From positions 1 through 34,306 of the forward strand of contig JAVHLJ010000026.1 in assembly GCA_031082205.1 (NCBI GenBank): 34,306 bases of DNA. Reading direction: 5' to 3'. Source of the DNA: Elusimicrobiales bacterium (GTDB lineage Bacteria; Elusimicrobiota; Elusimicrobia; Elusimicrobiales; UBA9959). The position numbers and the translations under genes were made by a program. Shown here one piece after another: positions 3,842 to 30,442 of the stretch. Each line of letters opens with the position of its first letter. Positions within the stretch are counted from its first letter, which is position 1. Below the pieces are notes generated by a model. It had not been told where the DNA came from, did no database searches, and was given only the letters and a program-made list of their open reading frames with translations.

Positions 3842-5164
3842 TTACGGCTGGTTCATCCAGGTGACGAACTCGTCCCAGCGCGAATCCCTGGCCCAGGCCA
3901 GCTCGCTGTAGCCGTTGGCGAGGCCCGAGTAGGGGAAGTACGCCGCCATGCCCTTGGAGAGCGTGTACTGCTTGGGGCCGCTCCAGAAGCTGCCCTGGCT
4001 GTCGCGGGTGCGGTTGTGCAGCATCAGCGAGCCGGTGATATAGTCCATGAGCGCCTGGCCGGCGGCCCTGACCTGCTCGTTCTGGGAGCCCTCGACCACG
4101 CGGCGGGCGAAGTCGTACATGTCGCGGTTCTCGCCTATCGCGTAGTTGATGGCCGCGTTGCGGGCGGTCTTGGCCAGCGCTTTCTCGCCCGAGGCCATCA
4201 TCGCGTCGGCGAAGGCGTTGCTGACGGTCAGCAGGCCGCCCACGGCCGAGGCGCGCGCCAGGCTCTGGGTGTAGCCCTGATTTATCTTATCGTAGTGGTT
4301 GGCGTAGGCGTCCACGGTCAGCCTGCCCACTTCCTGCGGGGTCATCGCGGGCCGGGCGGCTATCGGGCCCAGGAAGTCGTTGTAGGTGTAGCCGTCGCCG
4401 GGCTCGGTCTCCTCGGAACCCACGATGAAGTCCGCGTAGTCCTTGATCTCGTAGACCACCTCGGCCATCTGCATCAGGCAGGCGTCGGTGCTGAACACGT
4501 CGACCTTGCCTATTTCGCGCAGCGCCATGGCCAGTTCGGGGGTGGTGATGTGGTTGCCGCTCTCCTCGTCATAGGAGATGCCCTTGTTCTCGTCGGCCTT
4601 GTTCTTGAGCCAGCCGTCCCCGTGGTTGGAGACTATCAGCATGTACTTCTTGGCCGGGAAATTCTCCTTGGCCCATTTGCCGAAGGCGGCCAGGTTGCGG
4701 TAGTCGCCCTGGTCGATCATGCCGAGGTCCTGTATCATCCTGGACCCCATCCTGGTCATGTCGGAATCTTTCTGTATCAGGTAGCGGCGGACGCCGGTCC
4801 AGTCGCCGTCCGAGGCGTCGTGGCCCTGCATGCGGCCCACTTCGACCACGATGTTGAGCTTGTCGGTGGAGCCGACCAGCTCCATCTCGTTTATGTCGCG
4901 CAGGAGGAAGCGCTCCAGGTCGTTCTTGGCGCTGGAGAAGACCATGATGGTCCACTCGGCCTTCTCTTTCTTGCCGAAGAGCCAGTCGAATATACCCTTG
5001 TCCTGGTCCTGGGCGGCTATCGCCTCGGCGGGCACGGAGAGCTCGACCTGCGAGATCCTCTCCATTATGTCCCCGCCGCGGGAAGAGCCGTCGAAATCGA
5101 CGGACCAGCCCTGCACCGGCATTAGAAGGGCCGCTATGGCTGTCATCGTAAGCTTGCGTATCAT
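3842..5164 (-). CDS. Secreted clostripain-family (C11) cysteine peptidase, copy 1
   Basis: This 440-residue protein has a signal peptide (MIRKLTMTAIAALLMPVQGWS). The peptidase C11 fold follows: WTIMVFSSAKNDLE near 71-84, catalytic H181 in SNHGDGW and catalytic C229 in STDACLMQM, matching the His/Cys dyad of clostripain. The family cleaves after basic residues, usually Arg, and is often exported. An open frame extends 43 codons further upstream, but the ATG at 5164 is chosen because it begins the signal peptide and has AGGAGG (5170-5175) five bases before it. A paralogue with the same layout lies at 24219-25628. No internal self-processing site was identified. Target proteins are unknown. Confidence 0.9.
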   Translation of the reverse strand: MIRKLTMTAIAALLMPVQGWSVDFDGSSRGGDIMERISQVELSVPAEAIAAQDQDKGIFDWLFGKKEKAEWTIMVFSSAKNDLERFLLRDINEMELVGSTDKLNIVVEVGRMQGHDASDGDWTGVRRYLIQKDSDMTRMGSRMIQDLGMIDQGDYRNLAAFGKWAKENFPAKKYMLIVSNHGDGWLKNKADENKGISYDEESGNHITTPELAMALREIGKVDVFSTDACLMQMAEVVYEIKDYADFIVGSEETEPGDGYTYNDFLGPIAARPAMTPQEVGRLTVDAYANHYDKINQGYTQSLARASAVGGLLTVSNAFADAMMASGEKALAKTARNAAINYAIGENRDMYDFARRVVEGSQNEQVRAAGQALMDYITGSLMLHNRTRDSQGSFWSGPKQYTLSKGMAAYFPYSGLANGYSELAWARDSRWDEFVTWMNQP

Positions 5165-5207
5165 GGCTGCCTCCTGACCTGCTTGACCTGCATCAACTTC
5201 CATCAAT

Positions 5208-5235
5208 AGTCTAGCCTCCCGCGGTTCCGGGTCAA
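5208..5235 (-). promoter_or_regulatory. Promoter of C11 peptidase copy 1
   Basis: On the minus strand TTGACC (5235-5230) and TAGACT (5213-5208) are 16 bases apart, putting the start site near 5201 and giving a leader of about 37 bases that contains the AGGAGG. Confidence 0.5.
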
Positions 5236-5256
5236 AGGGTCCGGGGACCCCCAGTT

Positions 5257-5278
5257 TTATGGGCCTAAGGGCCCATAA
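5257..5278. repeat. GGGCC-TAAG-GGCCC palindrome upstream of C11 peptidase copy 1
   Basis: Perfect 9-bp arms TTATGGGCC (5257-5265) and GGCCCATAA (5270-5278) surround TAAG. The palindrome lies about 57-77 bases upstream of the predicted start site of the C11 gene and is also upstream of the divergent SWIB gene. Similar GGGCC/GGCCC palindromes with TTAA-type centres occur at 24120-24136 and 34206-34219. Confidence 0.55.
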
Positions 5279-5324
5279 TCCCGCCCCGCTCATTGACCCG
5301 GCGCAAGGCGCGCGGCGGCCGTTT

Positions 5325-24218: not shown

Positions 24219-25628
24219 ATGAACCTCAAAGCCCTTTCCCTTATACCCGCCGCCCTTCTCATGTGCGGCTCTTTCGGTCTCAACGCTCAGGAGTTCGACC
24301 TGGACTCCCTCACCCTCTCCGGGGTCCCGGCCATAGAAGTGCCCGCGGCCCTGGAGGACGCCTCCCGCGCCAAGCCGGGCCCGCTCGCCCAGAAAGAGTG
24401 GACCGTCCTGGTCTTCATGAACGCCAAGAACGACCTCAGCGAGAGCAGCCTGCTGGGCCTGGTCGGCAAGTGGGCCGAGCGCGACATCAAGGAGATGAAG
24501 CAGGTCGGCACCACCGACAAGGTCAACATAGTGGTCGAGCACGGCAAGGCGGGCGAGGGCTCGCGCCGGCTGCTCATCAACAAGAAGGGCGGCATCTTCT
24601 CCAGCGGCGAGACCAAATACTCCGAGGACAAGAACGCCGACATGGGCGACTACCGCCGCGTCATAGACTTCGTGAAATGGGGCAAGCAGACCTTCCCCGC
24701 CAGGAAATACATGCTGGTGCTCTGGAACCACGGCCTCGGCTGGATAGACCCCAACCTGCAGCAGCACGCCGCCGGCACCGGGACCAATAACAAGGGCATA
24801 CTCTTCGACGACGACACCAAGAACTACGTCCGCACCCACCAGCTGGGCGAGATCCTGCGCCAGGCCGGCTACGTGGACATACTGATGCAGAACGCCTGCC
24901 TCCAGCAGATGGCCGAAGTTCTCTACGAGATGAAGGACGGCGCGGGCCTCTTCGTCGGCTCCGAGGAGACCATGCTGGCCCAGGGCTTCGACTACGAGAA
25001 GCTGCTCAACTTCATGAACGCCGACGTCAACTTCACCAACGAAAAGTTCAGCGACTTCCTGATGCAGTGGTACCGCGACTTCTACGCCGGCGGCATGAGC
25101 GTAGGCCCGCTGACGATGCCGCTGGATTCCATACCGGCCCAGCTCTCCACCGTCCGCCCCGGCCCGCTCTCCGAGCTGCCGGCGCGGCTCGACGCCTTCA
25201 CGGCGGCGGTGATGGCCAATAACGAGACCGAGGCCGTCCGCAAGGCCGTGGCCGACGTCGTCCGCTTCACCAGCATCGACCCCTCGGACAAGAAGAAGCT
25301 GCTGGCCTACTACGCCGACCTCTACGACTTCGCCGGCATAGTCGGCCGCAACGCCCGCTCCGCGGAGGCCCGCCGGGCCGCCGAGAGCCTGCAGGGCTTC
25401 ATCAAGAACAGCCTGGTCATGCGCAATGTCGGCATCAACGCCGACGCCGAGAACGGCTACGCCTACTCGCGGACCGGCGGCATCGCCATCAACATGACGC
25501 TCAAGGCGAAGAACGTCCCGCCGCAGCTGGCGGACATCCACGAGACGGACTACTCCACCCTGTCGCTGTCGCGCGACTCGCAGTGGGACGAGTTCCTCTC
25601 CTGGGCCGACTCGGTCTGGCGCAACTGA
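24219..25628 (+). CDS. Secreted clostripain-family (C11) cysteine peptidase, copy 2
   Basis: This 469-residue protein has a signal peptide (MNLKALSLIPAALLMCGSFGLNAQ). The C11 domain begins at KEWTVLVFMNAKNDLSE (about 59-75). Catalytic H171 lies in LWNHGLGW and catalytic C227 in MQNACLQQM. Copy 1 has Asp before the Ala-Cys (TDAC), whereas this copy has Asn (QNAC), so the S1 or oxyanion surroundings differ slightly. The C-terminal end LSRDSQWDEFLSWADSVWRN parallels the end of copy 1. The gene is monocistronic, with its own TATACT, a strong AGGAGG and a strong terminator. It probably acts outside the cell or in the periplasm. Substrates are unknown. Confidence 0.92.
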   Translation: MNLKALSLIPAALLMCGSFGLNAQEFDLDSLTLSGVPAIEVPAALEDASRAKPGPLAQKEWTVLVFMNAKNDLSESSLLGLVGKWAERDIKEMKQVGTTDKVNIVVEHGKAGEGSRRLLINKKGGIFSSGETKYSEDKNADMGDYRRVIDFVKWGKQTFPARKYMLVLWNHGLGWIDPNLQQHAAGTGTNNKGILFDDDTKNYVRTHQLGEILRQAGYVDILMQNACLQQMAEVLYEMKDGAGLFVGSEETMLAQGFDYEKLLNFMNADVNFTNEKFSDFLMQWYRDFYAGGMSVGPLTMPLDSIPAQLSTVRPGPLSELPARLDAFTAAVMANNETEAVRKAVADVVRFTSIDPSDKKKLLAYYADLYDFAGIVGRNARSAEARRAAESLQGFIKNSLVMRNVGINADAENGYAYSRTGGIAINMTLKAKNVPPQLADIHETDYSTLSLSRDSQWDEFLSWADSVWRN

Positions 25629-27738: not shown

Positions 27739-28920
<1,182 letters not shown>

Positions 28921-28941: not shown

Positions 28942-28969
28942 AGCCCCGGGCCGCCCCGGGGCTTTTTTT
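28942..28969. terminator. Terminator between the thiolase and small-peptide genes
   Basis: AGCCCCGGG (28942-28950) and CCCGGGGCT (28955-28963) form a 9-bp stem with loop CCGC, followed by a T-run (28963-28969). Reading leftward, CTTTTATT follows the same stem, so it can also serve the convergent small-peptide gene. Confidence 0.88.
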
Positions 28970-28990: not shown

Positions 28991-29203
28991 TCAGACCGGG
29001 GTGGGCGGCGGGACCGGCGGGCAGTCGGAAGGGCAGTGCACGTACTTGGGGCAGACCACCCAGTTCTCCGCGCAATCGCCCTTTTCGGCCATCTCACCGA
29101 AGATCATGAAGGCCTGGAACTCCAGCCTGTCCCCGGCCTTCTCCAGCGTAAGAACGTCTTCGGAGCCGAGATTTATGGATTTGATGAAAGACTTCGTTTT
29201 CAT
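28991..29203 (-). CDS. Cys/Pro-rich 70-residue small protein, sigma-54 controlled
   Basis: This 70-residue product begins MKTKSFIKSINLGSEDVLTL and ends CPSDCPPVPPPTPV. The first 40 residues are ordinary and mildly acidic. The last 27 hold all four cysteines (44, 51, 57, 61) and seven of the eight prolines in a CP-x4-CP-x2-CPP pattern. There is no signal peptide or membrane helix. The ATG at 29203 is chosen over upstream codons because AGGAG (29214-29210) is six bases before it. The overall look (leader-like front, Cys-rich end) resembles a ribosomal peptide precursor or a metal/disulfide-binding peptide, but no modifying enzyme is adjacent, so no function is assigned. A sigma-54-type promoter precedes it. 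Confidence 0.75.
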   Translation of the reverse strand: MKTKSFIKSINLGSEDVLTLEKAGDRLEFQAFMIFGEMAEKGDCAENWVVCPKYVHCPSDCPPVPPPTPV

Positions 29204-29295
29204 TTGATTCTCCTGGGGTTTCCCCCGCCTCTCTATTATTCGAGCTTCAGGTCCGGGGCTTCTCAGCCTCAACGCCCGGCTCTTACCAAAAACAG

Positions 29296-29311
29296 AGCAA
29301 TTTTTATGCCC
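29296..29311 (-). promoter_or_regulatory. Sigma-54 (-24/-12) promoter of the small Cys/Pro protein gene
   Basis: On the minus strand GGGCAT, AAAAA, TTGCT matches the sigma-54 consensus TGGCAC-N5-TTGCW except for the first and sixth bases. The -24 GG and -12 GC are ten bases apart. The start site would be near 29285, giving a leader of about 80 bases. Confidence 0.8.
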
Positions 29312-29438: not shown

Positions 29439-30380
29439 CTACTTTATCACGCTGACCGTGCCGCTCTTACCCTTCTCTATGTAATCCTCGGTGAAGCCGG
29501 CTTTCTTGACCTTGAAACCCCATTTCACGTAGTACTTGTCGGCCTTGGCCCTGAATTCGGCCTCGTCTTTCCCGGAGGCGAAGTCGGCGAGCTTGAAGGT
29601 CATCTTGAAATCCTGCCGCAGCCAGTTGAGCGGGAACTCGAAGAACCTGGTGCCTTTTGAGGAATCGAACATCTTGTCCTGCACCAGCTCGACGCCTATG
29701 TGGACCTTGCCAAGGTCATAGTCGCCGGTGAACTGGTTCCGGACCGTCATGGTGAACTCCTCGCGCACGTCGTCGTAGGAGAACTGCGCCAGATCCGCGA
29801 GAGAAGCCTCGGGCTTCTGCGGCTTCCGCTGCCCGGGGAAAAGTTCTATGGAATACTGCCAGCCGCCGTTCTTATCCCGGTAGGTGTATTCGAAAGGCGT
29901 CTGCCGCAGGACGAAAGACCCTTTCTGCGACTGGAAGTCGAAGCACACCTCTATTCTCTCCTTATCGAATTGCCTGAGTTCGCGCTTGTGTATCACGAGG
30001 TCGATGTCCGCGGTGTACCACTGCGTTCTGTTCTCGCATTCCGACCAGGTCACGTACTGGCCGTTCACCATGCCGCTGACGTCGCGGCATTCCTGCCACA
30101 TGAAAGCCCCTTCGACCGGGGTCCTGCGGTTGATGGCCGCCCCGTCGCGGGAATCCAGCTCGACGGTCTTGCAGACTTTACGCTGGTGCCAACCCCTGTC
30201 GGAGATCTTGTAAACGGGTTTGGCCGCGGGTTCCCCGGCCACGACCTCCGCGTCCCCGATAAGTTCGTCCAGCCGGCCGGCCCCGATAGCCGCTTTGCCG
30301 TCGAAGTCCACTTTAATTTCTTCCGCGCCGGCATAAGAGGCCGCCGCCAGAAGCATAAAAAATATTTTGAGATATTTCAT
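29439..30380 (-). CDS. Secreted protein of unknown function, sigma-54 controlled
   Basis: This 313-residue protein has a signal peptide (MKYLKIFFMLLAAASYAGA). The mature part (about 20-313) is rich in aromatic and charged residues and looks beta-rich, for example QYVTWSECENRTQWYTADIDLV near 109-130. Cysteines near 70, 98, 117 and 144 could pair in the periplasm. I recognise no domain. The ATG at 30380 is chosen over an upstream codon because it starts the signal peptide and has GGGGGAG a few bases before it. A near-perfect sigma-54 promoter lies at 30442-30427. The histidine kinase gene is divergent, and the sigma-54-driven small-protein gene lies downstream on the same strand. Confidence 0.8.
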   Translation of the reverse strand: MKYLKIFFMLLAAASYAGAEEIKVDFDGKAAIGAGRLDELIGDAEVVAGEPAAKPVYKISDRGWHQRKVCKTVELDSRDGAAINRRTPVEGAFMWQECRDVSGMVNGQYVTWSECENRTQWYTADIDLVIHKRELRQFDKERIEVCFDFQSQKGSFVLRQTPFEYTYRDKNGGWQYSIELFPGQRKPQKPEASLADLAQFSYDDVREEFTMTVRNQFTGDYDLGKVHIGVELVQDKMFDSSKGTRFFEFPLNWLRQDFKMTFKLADFASGKDEAEFRAKADKYYVKWGFKVKKAGFTEDYIEKGKSGTVSVIK

Positions 30381-30426
30381 CGTTTCTCCCCCGTGCCCGT
30401 ATTGTTTTGACCGTCGCAAAACATGG

Positions 30427-30442
30427 AGCAATTTTTATGCCA
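30427..30442 (-). promoter_or_regulatory. Sigma-54 (-24/-12) promoter of the secreted protein gene
   Basis: On the minus strand TGGCAT, AAAAA, TTGCT matches the consensus TGGCAC-N5-TTGCW at all but one base. Eleven of the bases from the -20 side through the -12 box (CATAAAAATTGCT) are shared with the other sigma-54 promoter at 29311-29296. The start site would be near 30416, giving a leader of about 36 bases. Confidence 0.85.

Follow-up and report, generated by a model that had tools for sequence, protein, structure and literature searches.

Does a solitary gene for a short cysteine- and proline-rich peptide in the genome of an Elusimicrobiales bacterium encode a RiPP precursor, and if it does, which enzyme would act on it? 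The gene lies on the minus strand at positions 28991-29203, stop codon included, of contig JAVHLJ010000026.1 (GCA_031082205.1), the whole 34,306-nucleotide stretch that was analysed and that we call the window; it runs from an ATG at 29203 to a TGA at 28991 and gives the 70-residue peptide MKTKSFIKSINLGSEDVLTLEKAGDRLEFQAFMIFGEMAEKGDCAENWVVCPKYVHCPSDCPPVPPPTPV. We treat it as an orphan precursor gene on the basis of its translation, a family profile and a syntenic ortholog. The first-pass annotation had singled out the composition of the tail, and all four cysteines (residues 44, 51, 57 and 61) do lie in the last 27 residues, with the CP-x4-CP-x2-CPP spacing that it gave; the same segment holds all eight prolines (52, 58, 62, 63, 65, 66, 67 and 69) rather than the seven of eight that had been counted. 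None of the window's other open reading frames of at least 40 residues, 182 in total with this one, combines at least four cysteines with at least seven prolines in its last 27 residues.

The start codon is preceded by a good Shine-Dalgarno sequence (AGGAG, 29210-29214, minus strand), as had been claimed, and 108 nucleotides upstream of the frame lies a sigma-54-like promoter site, GGGCATAAAAATTGCT (29296-29311, minus strand), which matches 11 of the 12 positions of the pattern TGGCAYRNNNNTTGCW, with one mismatch. On the 3' side a hairpin resembling an intrinsic terminator (28942-28963, minus strand) is common to the peptide gene and a convergent thiolase gene (27739-28920, plus strand; Pfam Thiolase_N/C), which serves here as a flanking landmark only and is also the neighbour in the sister-species contig G003:C29. 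Read together, the three elements plausibly delimit a one-gene transcript, and expression of the frame is likewise plausible. Upstream, a gene for a secreted-looking protein of 330 residues (29439-30431, minus strand) has an exact sigma-54-like site of its own at 30427-30442; the protein has no Pfam match and no defined family membership, and bears no relation to the secreted genes beside the other clusters with proline-rich (Pro-tail) precursors. Its ortholog adjoins the orphan precursor in G003:C29 as well, and we regard it as a neighbour that may or may not belong to the peptide system. Pfam matches on the flanks include a CoA-transferase/thiolase pair, a TetR regulator, a histidine kinase and glycosyltransferases, among others, and the 12 window proteins run against Pfam contain no RiPP enzyme. 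The earlier statement that no maturation enzyme sits next to the peptide is thus right for the window; such enzymes are encoded elsewhere in the same genome. The window also encodes a secreted clostripain-family protein (Peptidase_C11; 24219-25628, plus strand) with homologues near loci L036 and L050 and a possible paralogue at 3845-5293.

To place the peptide among known families we compared it with Pfam and NCBIfam, where it had no match at E values up to 10; the 24 family members described below gave only scattered weak matches to unrelated families. When 101 related genomes were searched with the peptide alone, 31 had matches at E≤1, many of them weak, the strong ones being confined to one taxonomic family. 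An iterated profile search of the fetched Elusimicrobiota DNA then yielded 26 rows, or 25 places once L032, which duplicates the L036 contig, was removed from the counts. These 25 include a prematurely terminated copy in the window's own genome that is absent from our 24-row alignment A1. The L036 row of that alignment has one extra residue at its start and lacks one at its end, an offset that the codon comparison described below corrects for. Against its own genome the profile recovers the window peptide at E 3.5e-20, the window sequence being one of the profile's 24 rows. That the frame is a chance one could be argued from its shortness and from a one-mismatch promoter match that lies within chance genome-wide; against this stand a syntenic ortholog of 79% identity with front and start conserved, and 24 further places of the family. 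Since the family exists, we consider the chance reading refuted and its probability negligible.

Outside the phylum, two matches of the one-sequence scan were set aside as chance, one in Chloroflexi, where only the Cys/Pro tail matches and does so inside another reading, and one in Hoeflea, located in a ribosomal-protein-like frame, which we take to be bL21. Viral contigs scanned with the family profile gave 13 pattern matches and no relatives. A public sister contig is available as DNQL01000304.1 (Elusimicrobia bacterium UBA11179).

The alignment divides the family into a shared front and variable tails. The front, of about 33 residues, has the consensus IIKSLNLTxGEVLTLEKAxDRMEFEAL, and M1, N11, L20, K22, R26 and E28 are invariant in all 24 rows; tails are 24 to 77 residues long and contain 2 to 12 cysteines in no fixed spacing. 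At least two cysteines occur in every one of the 25 tails, and 23 of the 25 fronts have none. In the window peptide the leader-like front would correspond to residues 1-33 (29105-29203, minus strand), a boundary estimated from A1 and from dN/dS, and the presumed core to residues 34-70 (28994-29104, minus strand), as suggested by its four cysteines and eight prolines, its dN/dS and the variation of tails across the family. Two or three members with differing tails stand in tandem at G004:C47, G033:C81, G037:C10 and G001:C15. A tree of the leaders places the window copy among the Pro-tail precursors with support of 38/88, too low for us to count it as proof of that grouping.

Some further peptides, found later, are outside the 25 places. 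G041:C5 (L091, 9374-9652) carries another lone Pro-tail precursor, with CTGRIPEPPPPTC in its tail, that resembles the precursor in the genome's own G041:C104 cluster. G050:C9 (L105, 5704-7047, minus strand) has a long, secreted-looking frame upstream of a maturase, whose C-terminal end bears a Cys-rich tail along with the precursor motif, apparently a fused precursor. At G044:C15 (L092, 12190-13015, minus strand) a tandem array of three peptides adjoins a distant radical-SAM and M50 pair. Their tails contain cysteine and their front (NIIESVEFLAxDDLLVAELDxRLSFxA), though divergent, is similar; they are perhaps a sister family.

To find out which genes accompany the precursors, we clustered the neighbours at 20 loci, the window and 19 others. 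A radical-SAM/SPASM gene is present at 17 of the 20 (two of the 17 being fragments, at a contig end in L051 and cut short in L049), an M50 protein at 15 and a secreted TPR-type protein at 11, and Pfam assigns Radical_SAM and Peptidase_M50 to the partner proteins. The three loci lacking the maturase are the window, its ortholog in G003:C29 and G003:C61, all with lone precursors. The CxxxCxxC motif with its three radical-SAM cysteines and seven cysteines of SPASM type, assigned by a spacing rule that we assume to hold, are kept in all 14 aligned maturases, and the M50 HExxH motif is present in 13 proteins. The conserved front, the variable Cys-rich tail, the tandem paralogues and these neighbours all support the original reading of the gene as a RiPP precursor, and the window peptide very probably belongs to this RiPP-like family. 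The same annotation had also allowed for a small peptide that binds metal or forms disulfides, which is the less likely alternative. A protein of this kind, outside the RiPPs and with unrelated enzymes merely neighbouring its relatives, would fit the Cys/Pro-rich tail taken alone and the standalone position of some members; the adjacency and co-occurrence of the maturase, the tandem copies that join one front to different tails, and a cysteine number that varies from 2 to 12 without fixed spacing all speak against it and leave it very improbable.

Several other genes were noted beside the precursors. L038 (1444-8605, G003:C61) and L041 (10434-18421, G033:C81) have a block in common, with a PmbA/TldD-domain protein (the domain was tested in L038), a preceding frame that by eye is TldD-like, small radical-SAM proteins and a histidine kinase; TldD/E are leader-processing proteases. 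Secreted trypsin-like proteases are encoded directly upstream of Pro-tail precursors in L047 (10257-11201, G037:C2) and L051 (472-1578, G017:C113).

Precursor and maturase also occur together across genomes. We searched 59 genomes of this taxonomic family with the precursor profile at E up to 1e-6 and the maturase profile at E up to 1e-50, and found the precursor in 14 and the maturase in 15: 13 genomes have both, one the precursor only, two the maturase only and 43 neither (Fisher 3.5e-10, with no phylogenetic correction). In the precursor-only genome, G020, the maturase is cut after 85 codons and has frames beside it that by eye look transposase-like; the precursor and TPR gene beside it (G020:C87, L049) are intact. 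Of the maturase-only genomes, G056 has both its copies near or at contig ends, and G002 has a complete maturase on a contig where the precursor was undetected. Phylum-wide, the precursor is found in 13 of 294 genomes and maturases above 700 bits in 12, all within this same taxonomic family, to which G017, with a maturase fragment at a contig end, also belongs; weaker and more distant maturase matches occur in three of the 294 genomes outside it. Restriction to Elusimicrobiota is a statement about these 294 genomes and the one-sequence pattern scan only.

Comparison with curated models indicates what kind of enzyme this may be. The best NCBIfam model for the maturase is TIGR04463 ('rSAM_vs_C_rich'), which two maturases match over most of its length with 124 and 135 bits (cut-off 525); for the maturase of the window's own genome the geopeptide model gives 117 bits (cut-off 400), PapB 108 (340) and SCIFF 86 (425). 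The M50 partner has two NCBIfam matches, LiaK/YydH (29.4 bits for one protein and 39.2 for another, cut-off 225) and the daptide protease (30-33 bits, cut-off 300). As all these scores fall below the cut-offs, the partners resemble RiPP machinery and reach no curated family that we saw; judged by sequence, this is an uncatalogued precursor family with an uncatalogued maturase subfamily. By sequence profile the closest solved structure is 5wgg (82 bits), listed as 'Radical SAM domain protein', which we take to be CteB.

Several known systems offer points of comparison. With the ranthipeptide/SCIFF group (CteA-CteB, PapB, freyrasin) the Elusimicrobiota system has in common a short precursor, a leader followed by a Cys-rich core and a radical-SAM/SPASM maturase, here with ten conserved cysteines and matches to the PapB and SCIFF models and to 5wgg; it differs in maturases far below the PapB and SCIFF cut-offs, precursors that match none of the NCBIfam precursor models, tails without the fixed six-cysteine pattern, and M50 protease and secreted TPR partners. 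TIGR04463 is the best model, but at 124-135 bits against 525 the maturase is not a member. The epipeptide system (YydF/EpeX, YydG/EpeE, YydH/EpeP) likewise pairs a radical-SAM enzyme with an M50 membrane protease, whereas the Elusimicrobiota M50 proteins score 29-39 bits against 225, the maturase has seven SPASM-type cysteines and the cores are Cys-rich. Parts of PMC10885120 describe M50 proteases acting in the epipeptide and pearlin pathways, and the role of EpeP; thioether-forming enzymes are treated in sections of PMC8326336.

Because of these nearest maturase models, thioethers would be the most likely chemistry. The enzyme might instead make something else, by epimerisation or by carbon-carbon or carbon-oxygen cross-links, leaving the cysteines to form disulfides or bind metal; the M50 partner's best resemblance, to epipeptide (YydH/LiaK) and daptide proteases, and the widely variable cysteine spacing among tails would suit this. 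Since 5wgg and a number of the nearest maturase models belong to thioether formers and cysteine is the sole recurrent feature of the tails, we consider it improbable.

How does the window copy itself fare? Its syntenic ortholog in the sister species (G003:C29) has the order thiolase, precursor, 330-residue protein, and frame, start, Shine-Dalgarno sequence, sigma-54-like site and front are all kept in both species. Homologues and a conserved neighbour, both of which the first-pass annotation had pointed to as tests of its reading, thus exist; the cysteine pattern it also expected holds less well, the ortholog keeping only Cys 51 and 57 and replacing the other two. By the Nei-Gojobori method residues 1-36 have a dN/dS of 0.24 and residues 37-70, from few sites, one of 0.66, so that the tail appears nearly relaxed in this comparison. 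Apart from this ortholog's neighbour, the only relatives of the 330-residue protein are distant ones in G001 and G002, and the precursor island therefore seems common to two species only.

We searched the window's own genome for a dedicated Pro-tail maturase and found none, only a set on contig C88 and a fragmentary one on C61. On C88 maturase and M50 protease are intact as reading frames; the precursor copy there is interrupted by a stop at codon 3, and the TPR gene is mostly gone relative to G003, where an intact relative exists. The C61 set has a complete protease and maturase residues 281-471 and runs off the contig, so precursors beyond its end are possible. When 20 maturases were placed in a tree, those from Pro-tail clusters came out as one clade with moderate support (86/94), and the C88 and C61 enzymes fell into two other, better-supported groups (97/98 and 95/98). 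Because of this separation the resident enzymes may not accept the window tail, which is our main doubt. The gene could then be the relic of a lost Pro-tail cluster whose maturase has gone from the lineage, with the peptide unmodified or drifting: the separate clade has no representative in this genome, the ortholog lacks two of the four cysteines, tail constraint is weaker, and on C88 the resident precursor is disrupted and little of the TPR gene is left. Against such decay, both species have kept the frame, start, Shine-Dalgarno sequence, promoter-like site and front (dN/dS 0.24), and lone precursors recur, with other standalone copies at G003:C61 and G041:C5; on this evidence we think a relic unlikely.

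The sigma-54 promoter proposed earlier gains its weight from the family. Genome-wide, the pattern with up to one mismatch has 21 matches against 33 for a backward-read control, and at least two matches turn up in 10 of 100 shuffled versions of the window, so we dropped the idea that a single site is significant by itself. Within 250 bp upstream, a site of at least 11/12 accompanies 16 of 25 family members; among some 4000 randomly chosen stretches of that length, 1.1% have one. The window's site is kept upstream of the sister-species ortholog. NtrC-type activators with a sigma-54-interaction domain are encoded near precursors at G037:C10, G001:C19 and on the window genome's C88, and histidine kinases near several precursor clusters; activators, sigma-54-like factor or kinases of this sort may control the window copy. 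The genome has two proteins with a sigma-54 DNA-binding domain. One, of 350 residues with a Sigma54_DBD domain (L035, 4147-5196, minus strand, C88), has a sigma-54-like site just upstream and adjoins the maturase cluster and NtrC-type activator; the other is on C32. The short factor and the activator beside the C88 maturase could be dedicated to the pathway.

Our preferred account is that of a standalone RiPP precursor modified in trans by a resident maturase and then freed of its leader. Signal-type control, through the sigma-54-like promoter and an NtrC-type activator, would lead to synthesis of the 70-residue peptide; its front (residues about 1-33) would dock on a radical-SAM/SPASM maturase encoded elsewhere (C88, or the contig-truncated C61); the enzyme would modify the Cys/Pro-rich tail, most likely with Cys thioether cross-links; and the membrane M50 protease encoded beside the maturase would cut off the front and release the product towards the envelope. 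What the comparisons establish directly is the gene and its family, the conserved front with its variable Cys tail, the maturase and protease that adjoin and co-occur with precursors in relatives, and a standalone arrangement kept in two species; docking, chemistry, cleavage, trans action on the window copy, regulation and a biological role are what we infer. Trans modification would be needed because the enzyme is not adjacent, and it has a precedent in the prochlorosins and SyncA, for which parts of PMC10783134 describe a conserved leader, hypervariable cores and genome-scattered precursors served by one enzyme. Conserved leader, variable cores and scattered lone precursors also mark the Elusimicrobiota family; the prochlorosins differ in their LanM-type lanthipeptide synthetase and Nif11 leader, and precursors per genome are few in Elusimicrobiota. 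With the missing adjacent enzyme, the two of four cysteines in the ortholog, the separate Pro-tail enzyme clade and the decayed C88 cluster against it, we judge the account as a whole probable, with considerable reservation. A bolder version, which we offer tentatively as possible and rather doubtful, would see an unrecognised Elusimicrobiota RiPP class with sigma-54 control, dispersed lone precursors, promiscuous radical-SAM/SPASM maturases acting in trans, M50 release and Pro-rich cores (VPPPxP next to Cys) with a new type of cross-link.

In the open-access journal literature we found no paper on an Elusimicrobia RiPP/radical-SAM system; in the portions of PMC8692599 and PMC11834409 that bear on them, Elusimicrobia appear only in BGC counts. 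Nor did the open literature yield papers on the geopeptide, TIGR04463, TIGR04280 or NF038107 families. The phylum is mostly uncultured and its natural products have received little study; the finding would add to them an uncatalogued family of precursors together with a subfamily of maturases. Enzyme-first mining limited to neighbours would miss precursors placed like the window copy, and this lone copy makes trans maturation and leader-only recognition directly testable with one small gene and one enzyme.
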